A DNA stretch of 38,686 nt from an uncultured Bacteroidales bacterium (GTDB lineage Bacteria; Bacteroidota; Bacteroidia; Bacteroidales; Paludibacteraceae): positions 1-38,686 of the forward strand of contig ONHW01000023.1 in the NCBI GenBank assembly GCA_900317745.1. Reading direction: 5' to 3'. The notes below the pieces were generated by a model that worked only from the letters and a program-made list of their open reading frames with translations, was not told where the DNA came from and made no database searches. The position numbers were made by a program, and so were the translations under genes. How positions within the stretch are numbered: the first letter of the stretch is position 1; each line of letters opens with the position of its first letter. This document shows positions 2,581 to 23,289 of the stretch, piece by piece.

Positions 2581-5459
2581 TGTACAATCAGTTTATGGTT
2601 AGCGGAAATATATATACCCGGTGCAGCAGGTTTGCCGCACGGTCGTCCGTCGATGGTGTAGTAGCACTCGGGTTGTGCGGTGCTGTGCGTATTATCCAGC
2701 GCGTCAGGCGTATAGTCATAGACGCATGAGCGGTACAATAGTCCATCGGATCCGGTCATATATACCTGATACGCGCCGTTCAGTCCGCCGGGTTCGCGGT
2801 AGTATTGTCCGGTAGCGTCAGGGATGAGTGTGCCGTTCTTGTACCACTGGTACGCCACAAAGTGCAGGTCGGTTGAGTCTGTCGGATTGCCGTTGCCGGG
2901 GTTGTTGTCCACAAACAGCAGGTCGTCCCACTTCTGATGCACAAAACCGTCGGTGAGCAACGTGAACGGGAAGAAGTGCGTCGAGCCTTTGCATGCCGTA
3001 CCATTGGTGTAGAACGTGAGCGAGATATAGAACGTACCGATCGGTGCATTGGCGGGCAGAGGGATAACAATGGTGCTGTCCTCCGGCAGTTCGGCTGCAA
3101 GCACGCTTACGAAGCCTGCCTGCTGCGCATCAGACGGAAAAACCAGATCGTAGAGGTCGGGCTCGCCTTCGGTCACAGTGAAACGGATGGCAAGGGCGGT
3201 ATCGCTCCGGCACAAGTCAACCACAGGATCGAGTTCCACTACGGGGCAGATAACCTGACAATCCTCGCTCGTGCCGTCGATAATGATGGTTACGGTACCT
3301 GCACTGGTTGCCCAGTCGGAGAAGCCGCTGTTGTCCTTCACCTGCCGGCTGAAGATATACGTGCCGCCTTCCGCCATGGGGAAGGATTGTACAGGCAGTG
3401 AGGCGGTGTCGCTGTGGAAGATAGGCTCGCCGTTGCACAGCCAGCGGTAGGTGTAGTGTCCGTTGCCGCCGGAGGCTGTATCCGCCTCGGCGAGTGTGCC
3501 GGTGTAGCGAGGATGGCAGAGCGTGACGGTGAACGAATCGATGGCTCCCGGTTCAACGGCCGCCAGCACATAAACCTTGTGCTCCGACTCCGATTCGATA
3601 GGTGTGGTGTTGCACGATTCGTCGCTTGCCCTGCGTGTGAACGTGTATTCGCCCGGTTCGGTGAAGGTGAAGTTGAGCGTGTCGGCTGCGGCTACAGAGC
3701 CATCGATATATACGGGATTCTTCGTGCCGGACGGTGTGACGGCTTTCCACAAGTAACTGAATTCGCCTGCACCGCCTGTAGCAGGCTGCTCGCTGCGGAT
3801 GGTGAATGTTTGCGGCACGCCGTAGATCGTGTCGGGTTCGTCGAACAGTTTGCCTGCATCGAACGGGTTGAGAACAGTCAGGTACAAGCGTCCGGGCGAT
3901 TCGGTCCAGTCGGTGGTACACTGGTAGTCGTGCGCGTAACGGCGGAAAGCGTATGTGCCGGACACGTCAGTAGGCAAATCCCGTTTGCGGTACTCGTTGT
4001 GACTGAGGTAAACTGTGTCCATCGGAATGTGTGCCAGCGGATGGTGCTCATCGTCGTACACTACGGTATCGCGAATAACCATGTAGCGGTAACACATGTT
4101 TCCGTCCTGCTCATCGTCCTTGCCGCCAAGCGGTTCTTTGCCGCCGTTGGCTTTCAGAATATTGACGTTCTCCTCGCGCCAGCAGGCGGTAACCGTGCCC
4201 TCCATCTTGCCTGCATCGAACTTCTCGTAGCCTTTGACAATGGCATAAATCTGCTTGCTCGTACTGCCTTCAGTCATGGTGAGAATAACCTCCTGATTGC
4301 CGCAGGGACGAACGACCTGTGCGCTGTTGGCATTCTGGATGTGAATAACATCCTCGCCGGAAGAGATCCATACGGAACTGCTGCCGCCCAACAACTTGAA
4401 TGACTTACGCGGCAGGTTGCCTTGCATAGGCGCGCCAACGCCCTCGGCACGTTCGACAGGCAGATTGTCGGCGTCAAGGAGGATAGCGTTGGTGGAGACG
4501 CGTGCTGCCTCATGATCGCCGAAGCACTTCAGGCGCGGGTAACGGTAGTAACTGTTGGTGACGCAATCCCACTCGCTGCGGTTAGTGTACGGATTGGCGG
4601 CGGAGAAGAACGTGGCGGACTTCTCGATGGCGTACTGCGTGTTGTCGAGCACATCGGCTGTGCCGTAGCCGGTAGCATAGGTGCGCGTCACTTGCTGGTC
4701 GAAGCATATTTGTGTGAGGTTGGCTGCGGCTGCTTCGTTCAGTCCGAACAATGCGCCGGCGTGCTCGGCACCCTTGCAGTAACCGGCGTTATAACACTCG
4801 TTGAGAGTAGCCGTGCTCTTGTTCACACCGACTAATCCGCCCACATGGCTGTTGGCATCGGTGATAATGCCGCAGTTGTAGGCAAATTCCAGTTTGCCGT
4901 AGTTCGTGCCGATCAGTCCGCCGATGTTATCGCCGTTGTGGGCGATGATCTGCGCCATATTGAAGCAGTGGTGCAGTCGTCCGCGGTTGATACCGATGAA
5001 AGCACCTACATTGCTTGTGGCGTCTGTCATGATCTGTCCCTGCGCAATGCCGAGGTTATGAACGAGTGCTTCAGCACCTGTCTCGGCAATCAGTCCCGCT
5101 GCCGTAGGAAAGGAGTTGAGGATATACAGGTTGTAGATGACGTGGTTGTTGCCGTCCAGTTCGCCGCGAAAAGGCATAGCGGCTGAGCCGACAGGTTCCC
5201 AACTCGGCGGCAACTCCTGCGTGCCGCCAAGGTCAAGGTCGGCGTCCAGACGGATACGTTTGCCGGCAAAGTCGTCTGTGCGGCTCTGCTGCGCTATCCA
5301 GGCGAGGTGCTCGGGCGCGGTAATGACGTACGTGGCGCCGCTGATAGCAGGGGCTTGTGCAGTGCCGTTCCACGGCGCGGAAACAGCAGCAAAGGAATGG
5401 GTGCCCCCTAATGCCATGCTTATTAGCACAGCATTTACAAGTGCAAAGATATGTTTCAT
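2577..5459 (-). CDS. Secreted GLUG-repeat surface protein with sorting-like tail
   Basis: About 960 aa from the chosen start, MKHIFALVNAVLISMALGG, which begins a signal peptide; an in-frame ATG 13 codons upstream would spoil the signal. Residues about 30-110 carry the usual GLUG-protein lead-in (LDGNNHVIYNLYI). At least four GLUG motifs follow (GGLIGTNYGK, GGLVGVNKST, GAFIGINRGR, GALFGLNEAA). The middle and C-terminal half hold Ig/PKD-like repeats with the pattern YxYxWLCNG. The last 28 residues (YTIDGRPCGKPAAPGIYI...) resemble degenerate Bacteroidota sorting tails. Likely a cell-surface adhesin or matrix protein. It is coupled by ATGA overlap to the downstream barrel gene and lies 31 bp after a BspA gene. 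Confidence 0.8.
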   Translation of the reverse strand: MKHIFALVNAVLISMALGGTHSFAAVSAPWNGTAQAPAISGATYVITAPEHLAWIAQQSRTDDFAGKRIRLDADLDLGGTQELPPSWEPVGSAAMPFRGELDGNNHVIYNLYILNSFPTAAGLIAETGAEALVHNLGIAQGQIMTDATSNVGAFIGINRGRLHHCFNMAQIIAHNGDNIGGLIGTNYGKLEFAYNCGIITDANSHVGGLVGVNKSTATLNECYNAGYCKGAEHAGALFGLNEAAAANLTQICFDQQVTRTYATGYGTADVLDNTQYAIEKSATFFSAANPYTNRSEWDCVTNSYYRYPRLKCFGDHEAARVSTNAILLDADNLPVERAEGVGAPMQGNLPRKSFKLLGGSSSVWISSGEDVIHIQNANSAQVVRPCGNQEVILTMTEGSTSKQIYAIVKGYEKFDAGKMEGTVTACWREENVNILKANGGKEPLGGKDDEQDGNMCYRYMVIRDTVVYDDEHHPLAHIPMDTVYLSHNEYRKRDLPTDVSGTYAFRRYAHDYQCTTDWTESPGRLYLTVLNPFDAGKLFDEPDTIYGVPQTFTIRSEQPATGGAGEFSYLWKAVTPSGTKNPVYIDGSVAAADTLNFTFTEPGEYTFTRRASDESCNTTPIESESEHKVYVLAAVEPGAIDSFTVTLCHPRYTGTLAEADTASGGNGHYTYRWLCNGEPIFHSDTASLPVQSFPMAEGGTYIFSRQVKDNSGFSDWATSAGTVTIIIDGTSEDCQVICPVVELDPVVDLCRSDTALAIRFTVTEGEPDLYDLVFPSDAQQAGFVSVLAAELPEDSTIVIPLPANAPIGTFYISLTFYTNGTACKGSTHFFPFTLLTDGFVHQKWDDLLFVDNNPGNGNPTDSTDLHFVAYQWYKNGTLIPDATGQYYREPGGLNGAYQVYMTGSDGLLYRSCVYDYTPDALDNTHSTAQPECYYTIDGRPCGKPAAPGIYISANHKLIVQ

Positions 5460-5490: not shown

Positions 5491-7521
5491 CTATTCAATC
5501 CGATGTCCGGATACGGTGAATGTACCTGTAGGCGTGATCAGTAGCAATTTGCCGTTAATGATTGACCATTGACAGTTAGCAGCCGGTGTGTTGCAGCCGG
5601 GTAGTGATATACCCGTAAAGACTGATGCATCCGGGTCGCCGGGTATGATAGGCGGTGTGGGCAGAACCTCGTTGCCGTCGGGTTGCTTGAGGTTGCCTTC
5701 GAAACCTGTAGTGGCAAAGTCGCCGGCATAGACGTGAATAGGTGTTCCCTGTTCATCGAGTACGGAGAGAATGTACGTGTAACGCGACGCTTCGTCCAGA
5801 CCCGTCACCTTGAACGACAGTGTATAAGGCAACTCACCTGCCTCCTGCCTGTTGCGCTTGGGAGCGAAGGATATGCCGAGTAGTTGTCCGCGGTTGCCGA
5901 GCGTCAGGTGGCAGAACACGTTTCCGTCCTTGTAGATGTCAATCTGGTAGGTGTTTGCCAGAGAGTCGGTCGGCCACGTAAAGTCTGCTGTCGTCTCGGC
6001 GGCATCCACAATCACCGTGCGCTGAACCATTGCGGAGTCGGGCGTGTCGTTCATGCGGAAACGTCCCCAATACGGATGTTCGCGGTAGAGTCGGCGGCTA
6101 TCCGGCAACACGCTCAGCCATGCGCTGTCGGGTATATCTGCCAGCGTACCTTCTGACACAGCAGGAGGAGTGGATGCCCAAATGGTTATATGGGTGATGG
6201 CACTGTCCCCCTTGAACGCATTGTCGCCTATCAGTACTACGTTCTTTCCTATGGACAACTCTCTTAGCGAGGACCAGTTCTCAAAAGCGTTCGTGCCGAT
6301 GGAAATAACTTTGTCGGGGATGACGAGCGAGTCTTGCAGTTTAATGCCGGAAAAAGCACTACCGCCTACCATCGTCAGTTCGGTCGGCAACACGATAGAG
6401 TCTATGTTCGGACATCCCGCGAAGGCGTTATCACCAATCGTGCTGATGCCGGCAGGCATCTCCACACGGGTGAGTGCCGTACAACCATTGAAAGTGGATG
6501 AATTGATTGCTTTCACTTTCTCCGGAATGGTAATATGCTTGATTTTCGTACACCCCTTGAATGCCTCCTGGTGAATAGCCGTCAGCGTAGAGGGCAGGAT
6601 AACTGTGTCCAGTTGGTTATTTGAGGAAAACGCACCTGCACCGATATATTTGCAGCCTTCGGGCAGCACTACTTTCTTCATCCGTACCTGCTGGCACAGC
6701 TTGGCGGGCACAAACTCCACATCCGGACCGAAGATAAATTCCCCGTTCCAATAATCATACAGATTGTAGAATACCGACGATGAAGCCGGCGGATTCTTGG
6801 CATTCCAGACAATCACAGGATTAGAGTGGAGACACCATGAGATCTGTTTGCTGGAACGGAAAGTAGCAGGGAAGAATAGTGTGTCCTGAAGCGGAATTGT
6901 CGCTACACTATTCTGGTCATATACCGCACCATTGGGTTCTCCGTCAAAGATACTGCCGTCGATCACCTCCAGGCACTCCGACCAGCGGACGGATTTCAGT
7001 GCGTAGCAGTTCCTAAACGCCATCTGACCGATATACTTGACGCCCTTTCCCAAGTCGCATTTGACCATCGTCGTGCAGTTGCTGAAAGCGTATTGTCCTA
7101 CCGTGTCCACCGAGTTAGGCAGTTTGATGTCCTTCAGTTTGTAACAGCTCTCAAACAGATATGCCGGAATCTTCGTCACGCCTTCGGGTATGTCGCACGC
7201 TGTCAGGTTCCACCAGTCTTGGAATATGGCGCCGCTGAATCCTGTCAATCCTTCCGGCAGACTGATTGTCTTGCAGGAGTTGTACGGATAATAGGTCTTG
7301 TAACTCGTCGCCCATGACGAGGCCTGCAGCACCTGTTTGTTCCACCAGAGGCTGTCCACGGTGTTCTTGAGCACGCCGTAACCCTCGATAGTCATGTGCG
7401 CAGTCTCGGTGTCGTACGACCAGGTCAGGTGCTCGCCGCACACGCCGTTGTACACCGTGGCTTGCACACTGCTGCCAAGCATTGCCAGGCTGACAAGAAT
7501 AATACATACTTTCGTTTTCAT
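5491..7521 (-). CDS. BspA-type leucine-rich-repeat surface protein
   Basis: 676 aa. A signal peptide (MKTKVCIILVSLAMLGSSVQA) is followed by about a dozen LRR_5 (BspA/TpLRR) repeats of roughly 23 residues between residues 60 and 450, for example ITIPEKVKAINSSTFNGCTA. A fibronectin-III-like domain follows (about 490-610, FTWPTDSLANTYQIDIY) and a C-terminal tail (NGKLLLITPTGTFTVSGHRIE). The fn3-like domain and tail are also seen in the neighbour at 7531-9771, so the two are paralogues. BspA proteins bind host matrix proteins or other bacteria; here the role is inferred. The linker before the tail (NCQWSIING) is encoded by a 7-bp-period array at 5553-5580. Confidence 0.85.
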   Translation of the reverse strand: MKTKVCIILVSLAMLGSSVQATVYNGVCGEHLTWSYDTETAHMTIEGYGVLKNTVDSLWWNKQVLQASSWATSYKTYYPYNSCKTISLPEGLTGFSGAIFQDWWNLTACDIPEGVTKIPAYLFESCYKLKDIKLPNSVDTVGQYAFSNCTTMVKCDLGKGVKYIGQMAFRNCYALKSVRWSECLEVIDGSIFDGEPNGAVYDQNSVATIPLQDTLFFPATFRSSKQISWCLHSNPVIVWNAKNPPASSSVFYNLYDYWNGEFIFGPDVEFVPAKLCQQVRMKKVVLPEGCKYIGAGAFSSNNQLDTVILPSTLTAIHQEAFKGCTKIKHITIPEKVKAINSSTFNGCTALTRVEMPAGISTIGDNAFAGCPNIDSIVLPTELTMVGGSAFSGIKLQDSLVIPDKVISIGTNAFENWSSLRELSIGKNVVLIGDNAFKGDSAITHITIWASTPPAVSEGTLADIPDSAWLSVLPDSRRLYREHPYWGRFRMNDTPDSAMVQRTVIVDAAETTADFTWPTDSLANTYQIDIYKDGNVFCHLTLGNRGQLLGISFAPKRNRQEAGELPYTLSFKVTGLDEASRYTYILSVLDEQGTPIHVYAGDFATTGFEGNLKQPDGNEVLPTPPIIPGDPDASVFTGISLPGCNTPAANCQWSIINGKLLLITPTGTFTVSGHRIE
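5553..5580. repeat. Heptamer array inside a BspA gene
   Basis: Four phased 7-bp units (including GATTGAC, CATTGAC) lie in the coding sequence just before the C-terminal tail of the 676-aa protein. The units are degenerate, so a chance origin is not excluded, but position and period match the other arrays. Confidence 0.4.
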
Positions 7522-17588: not shown

Positions 17589-17772
17589 ACCGCTGCGCTG
17601 ACAGAGTAGAGACCGCCTTCGGCTGACAGACCGCTACGCTGATAGACCGCTGCGCTGACAGACCGCTGCGCTGACAGACCGCTACGCTGACAGACCGCTA
17701 CGCTGACAGACCGCTATGCTGACAGACCGCTGCGCTGACAGACCGCTACGCTGACAGACCGCTGCGCTGATA
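17588..17772. repeat. 16-bp tandem repeat array between the helicase gene and pyrH
   Basis: Eleven copies of GACCGCTNCGCTGACA start at the stop codon of the helicase gene. Copies differ mainly at the central GC/AC/AT dinucleotide; copy 2 is GACCGCCTTCGGCTGACA and a 7-bp interruption separates copies 1 and 2. The period is not a multiple of three and the array is not translated. Two more copies lie after pyrH (18525-18563). There are no unique spacers, so it is not a CRISPR. Confidence 0.9.
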
Positions 17773-17810
17773 GAAGATAGATGAGAGATAATTATCAATT
17801 TTTCAATAAT

Positions 17811-21266: not shown

Positions 21267-22424
21267 ATGACCCTGAACGAACTGCATATCATCAACTTCA
21301 AGAATATCCGCGAGGCAGACTTGACGTTTGCTGACAAACTTAACTGTTTTGTCGGCTTGAACGGTCAGGGCAAGACCAACCTGCTGGACGCTATCTATTA
21401 CCTGAGTTTCACCAAGTCGGCGTTCAATACCGTTGACTCGCAGAATATCCTGCACGAAGCGGAGTTCGCAATGATTCAAGGGGTGTATTCAGCGGACAGC
21501 GATCAGGATGAAACGATGCAGGTGACGTGCGGAATAAGGCGTGGGCAGAAGAAGCAATTCCGGTGCGGAAAGAAAGATTACCAGCGCATGCTGGATCATA
21601 TAGGCCGTATACCGCTGGTAATGGTATCGCCGGAGGACGGTCAACTCATAGCCGAGGGCAGCGATGAGCGGCGGCGGTTCATGGACGTAGTGATCGGACA
21701 GACAGACCGCGCCTACCTTGAGCACCTGAACCTGTATAACGCGCTGGTCAAACAGCGCAATGCCTTGCTGAAACAGTATGGCGATAGCGACCATCCATCA
21801 ATTCCCGATGAGCTGTTTGAGGTGATAGAGATGCAAATGGTGCCGCATGCAACGTATATCTTTGCTCAGCGCAAAGCGTTTGTCGAGGCGTTTGTGCCGC
21901 TCTTTGCCGACTTGTACAAGACGATAGCCGAGGTAGAGGAAATGCCGCAACTGACTTATCGCTCGCAGCTGTTCGACCGCGAACTCGGTGAGGCTTTGCA
22001 GCGCACACGGCAGCGTGATCTGATTCTCGGATGGACCTCGCAAGGCATACACAAGGATGAACTGGAGATGCAACTCGGCGACTATCCGCTGCGGCGGGTT
22101 GGCAGTCAAGGGCAGCAAAAGACTTACCTCATTGCAATGAAACTGGCGCAGGCATTGTACTTGAGCAGTCAGCAGTCGGCAGTCAGCAGTCGGAAACCTA
22201 TACTGCTGCTGGACGATATATTTGACAAACTCGATGCCACGCGTGTGGCACGCATCGTGAATCTTGTTCGCGGTGAGCAGTTCGGGCAGATATTTCTTAC
22301 CGATACAGACAGGCAGCACCTGACGGATATTGTGCGTCCGATAGGTACTATAGATGGTGAAGTGCAGCCTTTAGGCTCAAGCAAAGTGTTCTATGTGAGC
22401 GGCGGAGATTTTCGTGAAGCATAG
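21267..22424 (+). CDS. recF: DNA replication and repair protein RecF
   Basis: 385 aa. Walker A is GLNGQGKTN (about residue 30), the ABC signature is GSQGQQKT, and Walker B is ILLLDDIFDKLD. RecF helps load RecA at gapped DNA. Two oddities. Just before Walker B, four phased 7-bp units (22166-22193) encode SSQQSAVSSR, an insertion-like stretch where relatives have a short variable loop. And the last residues (SSKVFYVSGGDFREA) are encoded by a 40-bp sequence repeated at 23250-23289, where the minus strand encodes the end of the sigma-54 regulator. Last gene of the frr operon. Confidence 0.95.
   Translation: MTLNELHIINFKNIREADLTFADKLNCFVGLNGQGKTNLLDAIYYLSFTKSAFNTVDSQNILHEAEFAMIQGVYSADSDQDETMQVTCGIRRGQKKQFRCGKKDYQRMLDHIGRIPLVMVSPEDGQLIAEGSDERRRFMDVVIGQTDRAYLEHLNLYNALVKQRNALLKQYGDSDHPSIPDELFEVIEMQMVPHATYIFAQRKAFVEAFVPLFADLYKTIAEVEEMPQLTYRSQLFDRELGEALQRTRQRDLILGWTSQGIHKDELEMQLGDYPLRRVGSQGQQKTYLIAMKLAQALYLSSQQSAVSSRKPILLLDDIFDKLDATRVARIVNLVRGEQFGQIFLTDTDRQHLTDIVRPIGTIDGEVQPLGSSKVFYVSGGDFREA
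22166..22193. repeat. Heptamer array inside recF
   Basis: Four exactly phased units alternating CAGTCAG and CAGTCGG. They lie in frame within the coding sequence, translated as part of a Ser/Gln-rich linker before the Walker B strand. Confidence 0.85.
22375..22414. repeat. 40-bp direct repeat, left copy (recF 3' end)
   Basis: Matches 23250-23289 at 38 of 40 positions. Both differences are silent in the recF frame (GTG/GTC, TTT/TTC). The first match base is G of GCTCAAGC; flanking bases do not match. Confidence 0.9.
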
Positions 22425-22493
22425 ACTCTAATGTTCCGTCAAATATGTGAGCACTTTGGGAGCAGCGTGGACGTGAGTGTTGGGGAATGGAAA

Positions 22494-22673
22494 GCGGCGG
22501 AATACCGCCTAAAACTGAACACCGCTGCGCTTACTCGGCGGGAAAGCGAAAGACTCGGCGTTGAAAGCGCCGAGCACAGGACACCAAAAGAATAACCCTG
22601 CTGCAAATATGCAGCAGAAGGGGAAAACGTAAAAAGCAACAACCGGAAACAGACTGCGGCAAGTATGCCGCAG
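22494..22673. repeat. Palindromic repeat modules related to those at 647-1050
   Basis: In order: GGCGG-AATA-CCGCC (22496-22509), the word ACACCGCTGCGCTTAC, CTCGGCG-TTGAAAG-CGCCGAG (22554-22574) followed by CACAGGACAC as at 669-678, then CTGCTGCA-AATA-TGCAGCAG (22598-22617) and CTGCGGCA-AGTA-TGCCGCAG (22654-22673), the last two both followed by AAGGGGAAA. Stem bases differ between copies in compensating pairs, which suggests the hairpins themselves are maintained. Confidence 0.8.
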
Positions 22674-22723
22674 AAGGGGAAAGTGAAGCCAGAATGTAAA
22701 ACGGCAATGAAAGTAAAACGGCA

Positions 22724-23080
22724 ATGAAAGTAAAGTGGACACTGTTGGTGGATGAGGCGAGTGGGGATCTGGATAAAAGACACTATGCACGGCGTATTCC
22801 CGGAAACGGCGAATGGGCTGCAGTGTGCAATAAGCCTGAGTTGAGCGAAAAGACAAAAAGAAAGAAAGCCAATCTGCCCGTGGCGGTGAACTTTAAGTTG
22901 CTGATTGAGACGTGCAAGAGTATATTGAATAATCCCGGTGCCCGTGCAATGTGGCAGGCACGCTACGAGGAAGCCAAGCGCAAGGCAAAAAAGCATAACA
23001 AGCCTATTCAAGGCAGGTTATGTGATTATGTGCGGCACGAAGTAAGCGAGATGCTGAAGAAGAACAGAGGAATCGTATGA
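22724..23080 (+). CDS. 118-residue protein of unknown function in the inserted segment
   Basis: 118 aa, strongly basic, no signal peptide. An N-terminal beta-like part (MKVKWTLLVDEASGDLDKRH) and a Lys/Arg-rich helical C-terminal part (RAMWQARYEEAKRKAKKHNK, then RLCDYVRHEVSEMLKK). I do not recognise a named domain. The outline (short SG-x(2)-x-x-x-x-YxRR start, basic helices with P-x-x-R-x-x-W-x-x-x-Y) recalls small accessory proteins of gut Bacteroidales and is loosely like the 112-aa protein at 37418-37756. The 17 bp before the start are duplicated (22707-22723), giving an out-of-frame ATG upstream. It is the only plausible gene between the 40-bp repeats. Confidence 0.6.
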   Translation: MKVKWTLLVDEASGDLDKRHYARRIPGNGEWAAVCNKPELSEKTKRKKANLPVAVNFKLLIETCKSILNNPGARAMWQARYEEAKRKAKKHNKPIQGRLCDYVRHEVSEMLKKNRGIV

Positions 23081-23124
23081 TTATTAAGCGATTATTGTGA
23101 TGTGGTAGTTATGATGTAGGGTGA

Positions 23125-23168
23125 AGCATATATTCAGCATATATTCAGCATATATTGAGCATATATTA
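23125..23168. repeat. 11-bp tandem repeat, four copies
   Basis: Four units of AGCATATATTN (N = C, C, G, A) run directly into the hairpin at 23166-23196, in the 3' part of the segment between recF and the sigma-54 regulator. Confidence 0.85.
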
Positions 23169-23196
23169 AAACCTCGGGAAAACCCCGAGGTTTTAA
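23166..23196 (+). terminator. Strong hairpin terminator after the inserted ORF
   Basis: A 13-bp perfect stem (TTAAAACCTCGGG, 23166-23178, and its complement at 23184-23196) with a 5-nt loop. A-rich and T-rich arm ends make it usable on both strands, ending rightward transcription from recF or the small ORF and leftward transcription from the regulator. Confidence 0.7.
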
Positions 23197-23249
23197 TGTA
23201 ATAATAAGAACAGTGTCAGGCAGTTATAAATTCAGCGCTAAGTTCAAGT

Positions 23250-23289
23250 GCTCAAGCAAAGTGTTCTATGTCAGCGGCGGAGATTTCCG
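23250..23289. repeat. 40-bp direct repeat, right copy (regulator 3' end)
   Basis: Matches 22375-22414 at 38 of 40 positions, 875 bp away. On the minus strand it encodes the last residues of the sigma-54 regulator (EISAADIEHFA and stop); on the plus strand it still reads as the end of RecF (SSKVFYVSGGDFR). Confidence 0.9.

Follow-up and report, generated by a model that had tools for sequence, protein, structure and literature searches.

A repeated 40-bp gene end between recF and a sigma-54 response regulator gene, and the genus-wide gene-array family represented between its copies

How can recF and the gene of a sigma-54-dependent response regulator end in nearly the same 40 bp when 835 bp of other DNA lie between the two ends? 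The question is posed by a stretch of 38,686 nucleotides from an uncultured Bacteroidales bacterium (contig ONHW01000023.1; the window), whose genome, G000, is compared here with the sister species G001 and with the closest relative, L149 (record CALZOG010000078.1). Positions 22375-22414 and 23250-23289 are identical at 38 of 40 bases with an offset of 875, exactly where a preliminary description had placed the repeat; the best score in 60 dinucleotide-preserving shuffles of the repeat region was at most 26 of 40. Pfam backs the identity of both genes. recF occupies 21267-22424 of the plus strand and uses the left copy as part of its end, while the regulator gene runs from 24433 down to 23252 on the minus strand and ends in the right copy. 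The RecF end is similar to those of genus-mates, which take the form K[IV]F.V..G.., and the regulator end, taken as natural from the outset, matches I[ST]..D[IV]..[FY]A, the type found in most of the 30 regulators read; both genes therefore have natural ends here. The two mismatches (22397, G/C; 22412, T/C) are silent in RecF and change the regulator frame, as had been noticed. A RecF end had also been read on the plus strand of both copies. This holds for the left copy; the right one is RecF-like for about 13 codons only and has lost the stop, with GAG at the position where G001 has TAG.

The relatives point to an overlap as the source of the shared end. Among the genus-mates G001-G036, searched for both genes with E-value cut-offs of 1e-20 and 1e-120, both were found in 30 of 36; by the coordinates as read, they are adjacent, co-directional and at most 190 bp apart in 20 of these 30, and tail-to-tail in a single one, G001. 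The relative orientation in the lineage of G000, L149 and G001 thus differs from that in most genus-mates that have both genes together. In G001 the convergent frames share bases, with no insert between them: RecF ends in ..KVFYVSGGDFRAG and the regulator in ..EISAADIEHFA. Such an overlap is no longer present in G000 and L149. The orientation has thus changed in this lineage, and an overlap has arisen. The junction comparison that the preliminary description had proposed supports its reading of an overlap that was opened.

Traces of that overlap are visible in recF itself. Across the overlap stretch, RecF of G000 is identical to that of G001 at 36 of 38 positions, against about 76% in the rest of recF (P 0.004 at 77%), as expected if double-coding constraint outlasted the split of the two species. 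Beyond the shared 11-mer, recF still agrees with the G001 overlap at 11 of 20 bases, the TAG stop included (p 0.004), and its end past the 40-bp repeat (22415-22424) is similar to that overlap as far as the stop. Both observations favour an ancestral overlap, of which the last 16 or so codons of recF would be the remnant. An origin of the junction from an overlap is, on these comparisons, well supported.

The interval between the copies contains what had been described, namely palindromic repeats, one small basic ORF, 11-bp repeats and a terminator-like hairpin, and no recombinase was found among the ORFs of the insert, again as described; the 118-aa ORF has no Pfam match. REP-like palindromic repeats at 22440-22690, with 30 more matches elsewhere in the genome to the part at 22482-22640, are followed on the plus strand by the gene of the 118-aa basic protein (22724-23080; 27 K+R, 13 D+E). 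Behind it, repeat analysis places an array of four 11-bp units, AGCATATATT[C/C/G/A], at 23125-23168, and the hairpin lies at 23162-23200, between the ORF and the regulator gene. L149, whose flanks are 93-95% identical to those of G000, has the same insert between the same two genes. There the stretch corresponding to 22440-22690 is largely replaced, while ORF and array are 93% alike, with dN 0.02 and dS 0.28 in the ORF, the mark of purifying selection. Because of this difference, the 835 bp are not one cassette: the palindromic part turns over, and the stable part is the 118-aa ORF with the repeats behind its stop codon. No match to the motif that we take to be the Bacteroidetes-type promoter was found between 22425 and 22723, and the window copy of the gene may be transcribed from upstream. 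Elsewhere in the window, a second cluster of REP-like palindromes lies at 406-1000, with direct repeats at spacings of 82 and 172-173 bp, and a tandem array of units of about 16 bp (GCTGACAGACCGCTAC) at 17622-17790.

If the insert were a mobile cassette with gene ends as its site, as had been proposed, its other copies should be telling. Leaving out five weak or partial protein matches of 47 (one of them in G028), 42 copies were used, i.e., the window copy and 41 others, 40 of them in other genomes and one more in G000; several flanks are cut by contig ends. The neighbouring genes are mostly different from copy to copy. A duplicated gene end is seen at none of the 41, and a long flanking direct repeat at one, L125 in G021, where 82 bp recur with one mismatch (4934-5015 and 6727-6808), once at -123 and once about 1.3 kb past the gene. 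This repeat lies between genes, includes a hairpin and a promoter box, and has further genes enclosed by its two copies. REP-like repeats of 35 bp occur at L131 and one of 23 bp at L118, and the remaining copies have at most 18. Gene ends are therefore not a regular site, a mobile cassette that uses them finds no support, and a long target duplication, found at one of 41 copies with some flanks cut by contig ends, was rejected as a hallmark of the element. Features of an insertion sequence or transposon were likewise not found: no transposase was seen in the insert, no inverted repeat joins its ends, and target duplication is not regular. The best Y1_Tnp match in the genome scores 21.5 bits (E 4e-4), below the 23-bit cut-off; with no IS1634-type match in this 95.6% complete assembly either, neither a RAYT nor a long-duplication insertion sequence is at hand as a mover.

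The closest relative complicates the account. L149 has nearly the same left copy as G000 and a different right end: its regulator ends in EISANDIDLFA, and the region is shorter by 36 bp, which in G000 fall at 23220-23255, an approximate position in the alignment. When the right ends are set in register, 9 of 37 bases differ and the next 56 are identical. All nine changes are assigned to L149 and none to G000, since the right copy of G000 equals G001 across the stretch. The dS of 0.28 represents a high synonymous divergence, so nine differences in 37 are not extreme in total. L149 thus has the insert without the right copy, and for this reason an insertion footprint is too simple a reading of the duplication. 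Of the original proposal, an insertion that duplicated the overlap, the ancestral overlap is supported by G001 and the insertion footprint only in part. Duplication by insertion is plausible, though contested by L149.

We give an even chance to the following course of events, reconstructed from the alignments. The common ancestor of G000, L149 and G001 would have had the recF/regulator overlap. The event that brought in the segment would then also have copied the overlap, some 40-50 bp; only such an event could leave both genes whole, and selection, rather than an element-specific cut, would then explain the length of the duplication. From then on, constraint on each copy would have been limited to its own gene: the left copy would have gained the two RecF-silent changes, the right copy lost the RecF stop, and the right copy in L149 been rewritten further. 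The overlap is present twice in G000, one copy per gene. Against this course of events stand the missing right copy in L149, the uneven split of nine differences against none, and the fact that duplication is not the rule around other copies of the insert's gene. The bases before TCAAGC also tell against it: they are GC in both G000 copies and GA in the left copy of L149 and in G001, which hints at later copying within G000.

A doubtful alternative separates the duplication from the entry of DNA. The overlap would have been tandemly duplicated by slippage, and several events would then have gathered DNA in the neutral gap: REP-like repeats, the gene-array unit and the terminator. This suits the composite content between the copies, the turnover of the REP-like part between G000 and L149, and the lack of a regular long duplication around other copies. 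A bare tandem duplication, however, occurs in no genome seen; genomes with the two genes tail-to-tail number only three. The alternative shares the ancestral overlap with the preferred reading, and the probabilities of the two overlap.

It is unlikely that L149 instead retains the ancestral state of the insert-bearing lineage, in which case the regulator end of G000 would have been overwritten later by a copy of the recF end, the shared GGCGGAGATTT being the place of a template switch or of gene conversion, and the overlap in G001 would be due to a separate deletion. Such overwriting would explain why L149 lacks the right copy, why the differences are concentrated beside the 36-bp length difference (nine in register, then none) and why both G000 copies have GC. 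A second site speaks against it: GTG stands in both left copies, of G000 and L149, and GTC in the right copy of G000 and in G001, so that an extra back-change is needed; this pattern speaks for a right copy made at insertion and rewritten in L149. Later overwriting also leaves unexplained the regulator-coding 11-mer in recF of both G000 and L149 and the likeness to G001 past it, and it needs the same junction twice.

Transposition by an element with long, variable target duplications is highly improbable. IS1549 and IS1634, for which target duplications of 8 to 514 bp have been reported (PMC2266710), would provide for the length of the repeat, and an 82-bp repeat does enclose L125 along with other genes. 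Yet the IS1634-family transposase model (NF033559) has no match in the genome, the insert ends are not joined by an inverted repeat, and the other 40 copies have no such repeat. That repeat and insert are not genuine and arose in assembly is scarcely credible: the genome is a draft and both copies are visible in G000 only, but a separate record, L149, carries the same insert at the same place, and the two copies differ at two bases, each fitting its own gene.

Whatever opened the overlap, the more important result is the gene-array family to which the stable part of the insert belongs. Relatives of the protein were found in 32 of 101 genomes, all of one genus. In GTDB 108 loci were matched, and the best 80, which were kept, carry titles of Paludibacteraceae, Bacteroidales or Bacteroidia, with ruminant gut as the source of many. 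When 393 genomes of the order were searched, four had matches: three belong to this genus, and the fourth, G260, is a distant relative (E 3e-8). No array follows within 500 bp of the G260 match, nor of a weak match in the genus-mate G050. After removal of 21 repeated entries from 122, 101 distinct copies were read. The sequence they share before the start codon mostly begins within 160 bp of it, behind the array the likeness mostly stops within 40 bp, and long shared flanks occur in 87 of 2463 pairs. Varied neighbours and short shared flanks mark the family as dispersed.

The array accompanies the gene almost without exception. Of the distinct copies, 98 have 200 bp or more of sequence downstream; a period-11 array lies within 300 bp downstream in 92 of them and upstream in 1. 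Other periods appear in at most 8 copies each, except 22, the double period, with 27. Four 11-bp units can be fitted at 36 or more of 44 agreeing positions in 96 of the 98 (32 and 33 in the two misses), a fit made with no separate null. In 89 of the 96 the array is oriented as the gene, with a median of 47 nt from stop codon to array in forward copies, and in seven it is inverted (L111, L155, L156, L141, L142, L226 and L227; part of the L111 flank is inverted too). The unit types include AGCATATATTS, AGCAYCCGATS, AGCAYCCATTS, AGCATACGATS, AGGTTCCAATS, AGGTCACGATG and AGGTCAGTATC; over ten distinct array types, a dyad within the unit is not significant (p 0.95). By these comparisons, the conserved part of the insert is a 118-aa gene with four 11-bp direct repeats, a member of a genus-wide dispersed family.

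Gene and array have diverged together. Protein distance and array distance are correlated with a Mantel r of 0.72 (n=96, L220 and L225 being left out as they have no full array), a value reached in 0 of 2000 permutations, the largest giving 0.16; the copies are related and not independent samples. In 1500 random pairs of the 88 forward copies, those at a protein distance of 0.1-0.3 have arrays that are 85-92% identical, against 46-47% in the spacer between stop codon and array and 50% for random 44-mers. With arrays so alike and the spacer at the random level, the covariation is more than mere linkage. Array type is best predicted by 14 protein columns; half of them are clustered (50, 54, 56, 58-60 and 64), the others being 7, 36, 76, 110, 113, 115 and 118, a ranking confounded by descent; columns 50-64 may form a recognition helix.

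Most likely, to judge from this covariation, the protein binds its array sequence-specifically. The ligand would be the array as DNA or perhaps as RNA: the inverted arrays argue for DNA, whereas the orientation of gene-less arrays to promoters, considered below, leaves RNA possible. The seven inversions among 96 arrays at the same time count against binding. In Pfam, PHROGs, NCBIfam, PADLOC, PDB and Rfam, nothing convincingly related to the protein or its relatives turned up. The weak matches were not taken as kinship, the best of them being PADLOC HEC-07 (E 0.0026, for L094), PHROG 4628 (E 0.006, for L138), SLX9 (E 0.015, for L145), a PDB match at E 0.39 and an Rfam match at E 0.008, far below the gathering score. 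A viral origin was also considered and rejected, as none of 20 pattern matches was a relative.

Arrays also occur on their own. Of 101 genomes, 23 contain a three-unit array pattern, every one of them a member of this genus, and none contains its reversed control; 54 gene-less loci among the matches listed for this pattern were studied; tblastn with 12 family proteins found the gene at none of them. Within 260 bp, the promoter motif points towards the array in 21 of the 54 and back in 3, while 33 have no such motif upstream; in the window the motif is enriched, with 12 occurrences against 0.55 expected. Two gene-less loci of G042 are 90-96% like the gene copy in two blocks, a 5' one with the promoter and a 3' one with the array, the gene being absent between them, and one locus of G014 retains a stub of the gene start. 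In the 40 loci that could be compared, the 14 in genomes with no linked array being left out, gene-less arrays differ from the linked type of their own genome by 0.9 mismatches on average, against 2.3 under permutation (P 0.0005); four in G014 and one in G020 are off the linked type, and differences of one or two bases occur in others, among them some in G032. The promoter-array cassettes may thus be internally deleted relatives to which the protein could also bind. The two-block relation is not found in every genome compared, e.g., only the 3' block is common to gene-less locus and gene copy in G041 and G059, and this, with the 33 loci that have no promoter motif and the exceptions in G014 and G020, weighs against such a reading.

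Single loci depart from the common pattern in their own ways. G028 has nine array places of one type (L265-L273); its sole protein match is weak (E 3e-5), with no array in the next 420 bp. At L300 (G001:C77), an 11-bp array that has a promoter motif to itself stands 54 bp before an ORF, presumably gyrA from its first residues. At L286 (G059:C5), an array directly precedes a 504-aa ORF that, by its beginning, we take to be a response regulator.

Tentatively, and at less than even chance, the family may represent a selfish unit of a new kind: a small protein without recognisable recombinase features would spread with promoter-array cassettes, and in trans with them, by sequence-specific binding to four 11-bp iterons. 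About ten array types would have co-diverged with their proteins in one genus, with two to three orthogonal pairs able to coexist per genome. No description of such a gene-array family was found in the open-access literature, which is not proof of absence. The locus itself offers a natural experiment in uncoupling overlapping genes, with the overlap in G001, a copy per gene in G000 and an altered end in L149. If binding holds true, it would in addition become possible to test directly how such a repeat family spreads without a recognisable mobilising enzyme.

Several known systems resemble the family in part. REP/REPIN elements and their RAYT proteins share with the family dispersed short repeats, a linked protein gene and non-autonomous copies. 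The protein described here, however, has no Pfam match and its genome no Y1_Tnp match over the cut-off (21.5 of 23 bits), and the array is direct, not palindromic; the separate REP-like repeats at 22440-22690 do contain palindromes. In type III toxin-antitoxin systems, antitoxin RNA repeats stand before an endoribonuclease toxin gene, and the ToxI unit is roughly 36 nt. The likeness to ToxIN lies in a protein gene with a repeat array (PMC8860590); here the array is behind the gene in 96 of 98 copies, with a period-11 array upstream in one, its unit is 11 nt, it is inverted in 7 of 96, and the protein, itself without a Pfam match, has weak PADLOC matches for one relative only (HEC-07, E 0.0026). 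The TAACTGA repeats of a few Bacteroidetes, likewise short tandem direct repeats in intergenic regions, have been proposed as protein-binding sites (PMC4679880). Their unit is a fixed 7 bases, they mostly lie just before start codons in the main genome, and the account of them consulted describes no linked cognate gene (PMC4679880).

The ParMRC system likewise has a small protein and direct repeats, a pairing that the family would parallel. In plasmid R1, ParR requires two or more 11-bp repeats, and homologues from different ParR families bind no parC but their own (PMC9426499). No sequence relation to it was found; of the window neighbours, RecF, the regulator and RsgA were searched, and none is of ParM type. 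The array here lies behind its own gene, on chromosomal contigs, and is dispersed. By analogy, the best inference is an iteron-like array with its own sequence-specific nucleic-acid-binding protein, in logic like ParR and parC; if the predicted binding is true, the genus would hold a ready-made collection of orthogonal protein-site pairs.
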